This document shows, in pieces, positions 21,865-26,413 of a DNA stretch of 47,127 nucleotides (within the stretch, counting starts at the first letter, position 1; each line of letters opens with the position of its first letter). Under the pieces are notes generated by a model, which made no database searches, had not been told where the DNA came from, and saw only the letters and a list, made by a program, of their open reading frames with translations. This DNA comes from an uncultured Verrucomicrobia subdivision 3 bacterium (GTDB taxonomy: Bacteria; Verrucomicrobiota; Verrucomicrobiia; Limisphaerales; UBA8199), in assembly GCA_903913865.1 (NCBI GenBank), contig CAIWMU010000266.1, positions 1 through 47,127 of the forward strand, read 5' to 3'. A program made the translations under genes and the position numbers.

Positions 21865-22743
21865 CTACTTCCTGTCTATCTTGTCGCGGGCCAGTTGGAG
21901 GATCTTGCGCTCGCGATCCGTCAGGCTGTGAATGCCGTGTGTGGAGATTTTGTCGAGGATCGGATCCACCTCCCTGCTGACGAACTCCTCGGGGGAAAGC
22001 TCAATGGGGACCACTTTCTTGAGGCCGGCATAATCGGCCTTGGGATGGGCCTTGACGGTGACAAGGGGGGGCTTTCTGAGGGAGGGGCGGGGGATCTCTG
22101 GAAATTTCCAATGGATGGCGTAGCGGATGAAAAACACCCCGGCAAGCATTCCGCCCAGATGCGCGGCATGCGCTATGTTGTCGCCCCTAGAAATAATGCC
22201 ATACACCGAGAGCATGGCGCTGAGGACCAGGAGATACCTCGCGCGCATGGGGATGATGAAGAAAAGGAGGAGAATGCGGTCCGGGTAAAGAAGCGCAAAC
22301 GCCGCAGTCAGGCCGAACGCCCCGGCAGAAGCCCCGACCACCGGTCCAGAGATCTGGCCCGGGATGAGTTCTGAAAGGCATTGGAGCAAACCGCCGCACA
22401 CACCGCTGCTGATATAAAGGGTGAGAAAGTTCTTCTGACCAAGGCTCTCCTCCACCTCCCGGCCAAACATGTAGATTACCCATCCGTTGAGGAGCAGGTG
22501 CATCAATCCCCCGTGCATCAGCTGGAAGGTGATCAACTGCCAGAGAAAGCCGCTTTTCAAGCCGTCCAGGCTCAGGGCGAAGTGGGCGTTGACATCCACG
22601 CTGGGAAACCGCTCCAGAAGAGCCTGCAACAGGAAGGCGATTCCGTTGACCACAAGGACCAGCATGGTCGCGGAGCGGCGGGGCATGAAACCCTGCCCGC
22701 TCGTGAAACTTGGCTCCCTCATGTAATGGCGGTCATCCAGCAT
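21865..22743 (-). CDS. Rhomboid family intramembrane serine protease
   Basis: A 292-residue protein with six predicted membrane helices and an intact rhomboid active site: nucleophile S139 in GASAGAFG and H195 in AHAAHLGG, with the supporting H82 and N86 in the MHLLLNGW helix. It cuts transmembrane substrates inside the membrane. After the membrane part there is a cytosolic tail of about 75 residues ending in ILDKISTHGIHSLTDRERKIL, a small C-terminal domain often seen on bacterial rhomboids. It starts 41 bp after the ApbE gene and probably shares its transcript. An in-frame ATG at 22722 is an alternative start. Confidence 0.93.
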   Translation of the reverse strand: MLDDRHYMREPSFTSGQGFMPRRSATMLVLVVNGIAFLLQALLERFPSVDVNAHFALSLDGLKSGFLWQLITFQLMHGGLMHLLLNGWVIYMFGREVEESLGQKNFLTLYISSGVCGGLLQCLSELIPGQISGPVVGASAGAFGLTAAFALLYPDRILLLFFIIPMRARYLLVLSAMLSVYGIISRGDNIAHAAHLGGMLAGVFFIRYAIHWKFPEIPRPSLRKPPLVTVKAHPKADYAGLKKVVPIELSPEEFVSREVDPILDKISTHGIHSLTDRERKILQLARDKIDRK

Positions 22744-25318: not shown

Positions 25319-26413
25319 TCAAGTGGCATCCGGCTCCCGTTTGTGCCATGCCAGCCAGAACAGAAGTCCTGCGATGCAACCTCCGAGCGGGGCGATGTGT
25401 GCGCCGGGGGAAAAGTGGACCGGATCATCCAGCAGGGCGGCGGTCGCCTGCAGGGCGATCCAGACGATGAACGCGGCCCAGGCGGGGAGTTGCATCCATG
25501 CATCCTGCAGCAGCAGGCAGATTCTGGTGCGTGGAAACTTGCAGGCGTAGAAAGTGACGAGGGCGGAGATGCCTCCACCGGCGCCAACGTGGGGGACGGA
25601 TGAGTCCGGGGTTGCCAGAATGAGGGTCAGATCGGCCATCAAAGCTCCCATCAGGAGCAGACATGCAGCCCGTTTCGAGCCGAGGAACTCCTCCACATCC
25701 CCGCCCAGCATGAGGAGGAACCAGACATTTGCCACGAAATACATCCAGGAGTCATGGATGAAAAAGGATGCGAACAGGGTCAGGCCGCCCAGGCGGGTCC
25801 ATTGAGATGGGATGAGCCCCAGGGTTGCCCTGGCCCAGCCGGGGTTGTAGAAGGCGCTCAGACTGCAGGCGACTAATGCGGCCACCAGGACCCAGGTGAG
25901 CATGTGCACGGTCAGGGTTCCGGGAGCTTCCGCCTTTACCGGGAGGCCGAGCAGGGCCGGGATGGACTCCCATTCGGCGTCCGGTCCATCGTCACCCTCC
26001 CGCGCATCTTCAGCCATGCGCTGGACCTCCATGATGGCGATCGCCTCCCGGGTAGCCTGGGGGAGGTGGTCATCCGGGCGGGGTGGTTTGGGTGCCAGTG
26101 GCATGGACTCCAGTTCGCCGGGATCAAACCAGAAAAACTGGCAGGATCGGCACACATCCACTGGAACCTTCCGGCCCGGCAGGGTGATGGGCACTTCAGC
26201 CATGGGACGGCAGCAACTGGGACAGTTCCGCCCCGGTCTGGATGCCCCTTCCCAAGCGGCCTTCCACGCCTCATTGATGGCCTCCGGCCTGATCGCCTTT
26301 CTCAGCACGGTGGTGTTGATGGCGATGCCGTTGCAGAGTGGACACATCCATGCCGCTCCATGGCATGTTGCCTGGCGCTCGAGCGACCCGGTGCAGTTTG
26401 GGCACTGGAACAT
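25319..26413 (-). CDS. Zinc-ribbon protein fused to a catalytically dead rhomboid fold
   Basis: A 364-residue protein. The N-terminus has two Cys-rich modules: C4/C7 with C24/C27, and C64/C67 with C88/C91 in a TFIIB-type zinc ribbon ending FFWFDPGELE. After an acidic linker (about 110-165) comes a rhomboid-like membrane domain with H220, N229 and GGDVEEFLGS in the usual places. The two catalytic residues are missing: GASG reads GAGG (G279-G280) and the AHLGG histidine is P342 in APLGG; the HL of the second helix is MYF. This matches the idea of an inactive rhomboid (iRhom/derlin-like) that binds but does not cut. An intact rhomboid is encoded 2.6 kb downstream at 21865. Role unknown. Confidence 0.85.
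   Translation of the reverse strand: MFQCPNCTGSLERQATCHGAAWMCPLCNGIAINTTVLRKAIRPEAINEAWKAAWEGASRPGRNCPSCCRPMAEVPITLPGRKVPVDVCRSCQFFWFDPGELESMPLAPKPPRPDDHLPQATREAIAIMEVQRMAEDAREGDDGPDAEWESIPALLGLPVKAEAPGTLTVHMLTWVLVAALVACSLSAFYNPGWARATLGLIPSQWTRLGGLTLFASFFIHDSWMYFVANVWFLLMLGGDVEEFLGSKRAACLLLMGALMADLTLILATPDSSVPHVGAGGGISALVTFYACKFPRTRICLLLQDAWMQLPAWAAFIVWIALQATAALLDDPVHFSPGAHIAPLGGCIAGLLFWLAWHKREPDAT

Follow-up and report, generated by a model that had tools for sequence, protein, structure and literature searches.

The stretch of DNA analysed here (the window; 47,127 nucleotides of a contig from an uncultured Verrucomicrobia subdivision 3 bacterium) carries on its minus strand, at positions 25319 to 26413, an open reading frame with an ATG start. 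On the basis of its Pfam domains and sequence, it encodes a putative zinc-ribbon rhomboid pseudoprotease of 364 amino acids, designated P0001. The initial annotation had described two cysteine-rich modules at the N-terminus, the second of the TFIIB type, and both proved to be complete C4 ribbons. The first (residues 4–27, with C4, C7, C24 and C27; positions 26333–26404, minus strand) was delimited by family alignment: it gave no match above the cut-off in the Pfam scan of P0001, and all four cysteines occur in nearly all family members. The second (residues 64–91, with C64, C67, C88 and C91; positions 26141–26224, minus strand) was matched by Pfam Zn_ribbon_TFIIB over residues 63–103 (E 5.1e-9) and is related to the solved chain 8yoz; its four cysteines are found in every member in which the region is present. 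The ribbons are followed by a cytosolic linker with the family motif W-x-x-I-P-A-L-L-G-L-P-V (residues 106–165; positions 25919–26098, minus strand; family alignment) and by the rhomboid domain (residues 212–357; positions 25343–25780, minus strand), for which the Pfam Rhomboid match (E 1.1e-19) scored 71.4 bits against a cut-off of 22.6. The head is probably cytosolic, and entry into the membrane appears to be retained.

A prediction of full-length P0001 from three sequences was poor (pLDDT 58.6, pTM 0.41), and the membrane domain (residues 160–364) was therefore predicted alone (pTM 0.65), with helices 2–6 mostly confident and helix 1 poor. A Foldseek search with this model placed GlpG at the top, but with an E value of only 0.12. 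In the VIA comparison GlpG was again the best match (Z 11.9, rmsd 5.2 over 144; the next match had Z 11.7, rmsd 2.8 over 137). The first 28 matches were all GlpG chains, followed by a designed rhomboid fold, a chain of a human ERAD complex (7y4w, Z 8.6), which we take to be Derlin, and iRhom1 (iRhom chains 9xy4, Z 8.1, and 8snl, Z 7.1). The Pfam match and the predicted model together indicate that P0001 has a real rhomboid fold, and the non-rhomboid structure that would have spoken against the initial annotation was not obtained.

An intact rhomboid with a C-terminal DUF6576 domain, recognized by Pfam and by its motif residues (S139 and H195), is encoded on the same strand at positions 21865–22743, minus strand. 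Its distance from the P0001 reading frame is 2.58 kb, in agreement with the approximately 2.6 kb given previously. Between positions 21865 and 26413 (minus strand), P0001, a Gfo/Idh oxidoreductase, ApbE and the intact rhomboid may form one transcription unit, the gaps between the genes being 138, 60 and 40 bp. A syntenic block of a congeneric species (L037) shares the order mannosyltransferase-like gene, intact rhomboid, ApbE, Gfo/Idh, zinc-ribbon rhomboid and S10 carboxypeptidase, the first and last of these names being taken from the gene sequences, and its intact rhomboid is a 67% identical ortholog.

This arrangement brings to mind an iRhom-like regulator, i.e. a P0001 that competes for substrates with, or binds, the rhomboid encoded at 21865–22743. 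The common strand, the short distance, the possible transcription unit and the conservation of the block in L037 fit such a role. However, conservation between the two species extends over the entire block, so that the adjacency of these two genes is not special; genes of the P0001 type and intact rhomboids lie apart in the other relatives examined, and there are genomes in which a relative of the intact rhomboid has no zinc-ribbon partner nearby. We regard the regulator as improbable. Among 20 family loci examined there was neither a recurring gene neighbour nor such linkage to an intact rhomboid, and for lack of a conserved neighbourhood in these loci a partnership with the nearby intact rhomboid was not adopted. 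The genome that carries P0001 encodes five Pfam rhomboids, three of which look intact. FtsH is encoded in the genomes of both species; this protease is near-universal, and its presence therefore says little.

Catalytic residues of P0001

Residue equivalences were derived from a family profile aligned to E. coli GlpG and from the family alignment. The landmarks H220 and N229 reported earlier held up in both alignments: H220 (positions 25754–25756, minus strand) corresponds to GlpG His145 and N229 (positions 25727–25729, minus strand) to GlpG Asn154. Also as reported, the nucleophile region reads GAGG (residues 277–280) and P342 lies in the motif APLGG. The position of GlpG Ser201, which lies in a conserved G-A-S-G-G motif in the family, is occupied by G279 (positions 25577–25579, minus strand; family alignment), and that of the catalytic His254 by P342 (positions 25388–25390, minus strand; both alignments). 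The losses of Ser and His are thereby confirmed, but a third had been overlooked: according to both alignments, the position of GlpG His150 holds Y225 (positions 25739–25741, minus strand). Three of the four key residues are thus gone, and the lost positions are encoded by ordinary codons (GGT for G279, CCG for P342, TAT for Y225). The oxyanion-motif Gly, the residue at the Asn154 position, the GxxxExxxG motif and G277 are retained.

Rhomboid proteases are recognized by the Ser of a GxSx motif together with a His; at these two places P0001 has G279 and P342. Its catalytic pattern is far from chance, since all 44 family members other than P0001 and its ortholog L008 (see below) keep both residues. 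That P0001 is a non-proteolytic protein is, at the level of sequence, well supported. It is hardly credible that it remains a protease by means of other residues, such as H339, which lies three residues upstream of P342, or S283. Both are indeed present in P0001, but L008 has no His at the position of H339 and keeps the normal Ser, the His150 position is lost in P0001 as well, and we know of no rhomboid with such a shifted Ser/His pair.

The zinc-ribbon rhomboid family and the order of the losses

Searches of 320 genomes of the order, 384 of the class and 387 of the phylum (some genomes being shared between the searches) yielded 46 different full-length zinc-ribbon rhomboids, a number that includes P0001 and L008. 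Full-length alignment and the family tree place P0001 within this Verrucomicrobiota family, defined by the colinear arrangement of two C4 ribbons, the linker motif and the rhomboid core. The family is scattered in Verrucomicrobiota, with a member in about 20 of the 320 genomes of the order. No relative was found in the viral contigs searched, and a scan of genome contigs returned only two relatives, one of which was L037.

Ser and the catalytic His are kept in 44 of the 46 members, the exceptions being P0001 and L008. The zinc ribbons were therefore not acquired by an enzyme that was already dead; the family sequences indicate that they are a feature of active proteases, and the expectation that ribbons and catalytic loss would be conserved together was not borne out. 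Homologues with intact Ser and His, which the initial annotation had named as evidence against its reading, thus make up most of the family, and P0001 itself is not among them.

L008 is the syntenic ortholog of P0001 in the congeneric species (60% identity) and apparently lies on the same contig as L037, for which reason the two were counted as a single observation. Its catalytic His is replaced by Gln, and the Ser (in GASSG) and the His150 position are kept. The evidence for dead proteins thus comes from two species, each represented by a single genome assembly. P0001 and L008 group together as a single clade with full support (100/100), and the sequences on this clade therefore indicate that the catalytic loss is confined to the genus and stepwise. 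The catalytic His was lost in the ancestor of the genus, or twice, and the Ser nucleophile and the second active-site His additionally in the species of P0001; the reading frame stayed open, and the rhomboid core was retained together with both zinc ribbons.

No other full-length family member was found in the genome of P0001 (95% complete). In the absence of an active paralog, P0001 thus takes the place of the active protein, and a scenario of duplication followed by decay was rejected on this ground.

Several relatives deviate from the common pattern. L052 (1501–2622) retains Ser and the catalytic His but carries Q at the His145 position and P at the His150 position, which may be a different way of becoming inactive, and L155 (1336–2745) carries an insert of about 90 residues between the head and the membrane core. 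There is an in-frame TAA in the second ribbon of L024 (112–1194), and L026 is split by an apparent frameshift; each is either a decayed copy or a sequencing error. L038 lies on a contig labelled Armatimonadetes, which may reflect horizontal transfer or a mis-binned contig. Seven other Verrucomicrobiota genomes encode stand-alone double-zinc-ribbon proteins of about 160–220 amino acids that are homologous to the head of P0001 (L148–L154). These have no rhomboid part, and no rhomboid reading frame was detected within the 3–4.5 kb taken around them. The head can therefore serve without a membrane core.

Selection on the two halves of the protein

The comparison of P0001 with L008 gave dN 0.31, a saturated dS and pN/pS 0.35; for the neighbouring genes of the same two species pN/pS ranged from 0.15 to 0.30, and for the transmembrane (TM) half of P0001 it was 0.43. 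The frame of P0001 contains no stops, and had the gene been drifting ever since the His disappeared, it would presumably carry stops or frameshifts by now. P0001 therefore combines the two properties by which a rhomboid pseudoprotease is recognized, i.e. lost catalytic residues and a gene under selection.

The two proteins are 70% identical in the zinc half and 53% in the membrane half. Among active pairs it is the membrane half that is better conserved (mean TM minus Zn +0.10), and a reversal of the size found between P0001 and L008 is rare, occurring in just 0.1% of the 946 pairs of active members. In the zinc half, both proteins have kept each of the 15 columns conserved in the family; the conserved columns that they have lost lie in the linker and the membrane part, including several at the active site. 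The tendency of the lost columns to cluster at the catalytic residues is modest (Fisher p 0.04 in P0001 and 0.09 when pooled with L008), and no weight is placed on it. Conserved columns of the TM half were lost outside the catalytic set too, and a general relaxation of this half is possible.

Branch rates were obtained on a fixed tree, with branch lengths fitted separately to each half. The TM/Zn ratio of the terminal branch of P0001 is 7.16 times that of the tree, the highest of the 46 members (next 3.72, median 1.13), and those of L008 and of the shared stem are 1.73 and 1.19, respectively. From these ratios, the release of the membrane half was strongest after the species split, in step, as the sequences indicate, with the further losses, those of Ser and of the His150 position. 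The branch length of P0001 is 0.14 in the zinc half and 0.805 in the membrane half.

The fast evolution of the TM half could also be read as that of a decaying gene, an unneeded protease caught before breakage; the patchy distribution of the family, which implies that the gene is often lost, and the broken copies at two other loci (L024 and L026) agree with this. However, the His is already absent in both species, and although these are separated by a saturated dS, the frames are of full length, dN/dS is low and every conserved column of the zinc half has been kept. We consider decay very improbable.

The main rival to an adaptor is a membrane-tethered zinc-ribbon protein, in which the function would lie in the head, through binding to nucleic acid or to a protein of the cytosol, and the rhomboid core would serve as an anchor without clients. 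The nearly frozen zinc half and the free membrane half of P0001 would fit this reading too, and the stand-alone double-zinc-ribbon proteins accord with it. Retention of GxxxExxxG, H220, N229, G277 and the overall core argues against a mere anchor, as does the pN/pS of the TM half, which shows that constraint remains. A tethered head is thus rather unlikely, though it deserves serious attention.

Proposed role and relation to known rhomboids

The balance of evidence tips slightly towards P0001 being a lineage-specific rhomboid pseudoprotease that probably serves as a membrane adaptor, its zinc-ribbon head lying in the cytosol. As proposed in the initial annotation, a pseudoprotease is the most economical reading of a lost catalytic dyad, purifying selection and intact ribbons; the partnership with the nearby intact rhomboid, also proposed there, is backed by the synteny of two species only. 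P0001 would descend from active proteases of the zinc-ribbon rhomboid family. Inserted in the membrane with the head on the cytosolic side, it may still recognize the membrane-spanning segments of clients in the rhomboid cavity, and the head may contact a cytosolic or membrane partner, so that a role as adaptor or receptor would replace cutting. The adaptor step is suggested by analogy only.

Among the five Pfam rhomboids of the same genome there is, outside the window, another rhomboid-fold protein (L121; G000:C142:31557-32207) that lacks His145, His150, the Ser and the catalytic His. Its relatives were matched in 47 of 313 genomes of the order at E 1e-6, the weakest matches probably being other rhomboids. 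About 20 aligned relatives from across the order all lack the catalytic residues, share with some variation the C-terminal tail S-x-R-x-x-R-L-E-L and, in 12 of 12 members scanned, match Pfam Rhomboid. Judged by these sequences, this is apparently an order-wide bacterial pseudo-rhomboid family, which would make bacterial rhomboid pseudoproteases of this group more than a one-off. Chances are about even that they evolved here at least twice, once recently and stepwise (P0001) and once earlier, as the order-wide family with the tail (L121).

The best-known rhomboid pseudoproteases are those of eukaryotes, and the route from protease to pseudoprotease is usually hidden by deep time. If the above is true, bacteria possess their own analogues of iRhoms and derlins, and a comparison of living species reveals in which order the active-site residues were lost, with an active family, the half-converted L008 and the fully converted P0001 among close relatives. 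Literature searches gave nothing relevant on zinc-ribbon rhomboids in Verrucomicrobia and no reports of bacterial pseudo-rhomboid families; the coverage of both was partial, which makes them weak evidence of novelty.

The closest known proteins are the active zinc-ribbon rhomboids (L009–L023, L038 and others, with Pfam Zn_ribbon_TFIIB and Rhomboid), which are colinear with P0001 over their full length (31–45% identity) and share its two ribbons, linker motif and rhomboid core; Ser and His are still present in them, whereas P0001 has G279, P342 and, in place of His150, Y225. E. coli GlpG, the best structural match for the core, is an active protease of the Ser-His type and has a different N-terminal domain. 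iRhom1 and iRhom2 resemble P0001 in their naturally dead rhomboid core, cytosolic N-terminal part and structure. However, they have a large folded first loop (the iRhom homology domain), whereas that of P0001 comprises only about 37 residues (approximately 186–222), and their motif is GPxG rather than GAGG; there is no evidence that the catalytic losses are of common descent. Derlin-1, likewise a dead rhomboid fold, uses this fold to handle membrane clients. Derlins have no zinc ribbons and carry a C-terminal cytosolic p97-binding tail, which is missing in P0001: its last helix extends to about residue 359 and the protein ends at residue 364. The kinship with iRhoms and derlins suggested at the outset is not supported beyond the fold, as their defining extra parts are missing.

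The closest precedent that has been studied by experiment is YqgP (GluP) of B. subtilis, in which a metal-binding head at the N-terminus likewise lies in the cytosol, ahead of a rhomboid core. Its protease-dead S288A variant still presents MgtE to FtsH, and the N-terminal metal-binding domain is required for this presentation (PMC7231995). By analogy, FtsH would be a plausible downstream partner of P0001. The likeness is one of layout and not of parts, since the head of YqgP has another fold (restriction-endonuclease-like) and binds metal weakly, whereas that of P0001 consists of zinc ribbons. YqgP is an active protease with a C-terminal TPR domain; P0001 is naturally dead and has no C-terminal domain, and its Pfam scan showed only zinc ribbon and rhomboid, neither a PF09491-like N-terminal domain nor a C-terminal TPR. 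The idea put forward from YqgP, that the adaptor function came first and proteolysis was dropped later, becomes directly testable in bacteria. By this comparison, the combination seen in P0001 of a binding, non-cutting core and a cytosolic zinc-ribbon head is probably the layout of a membrane adaptor.
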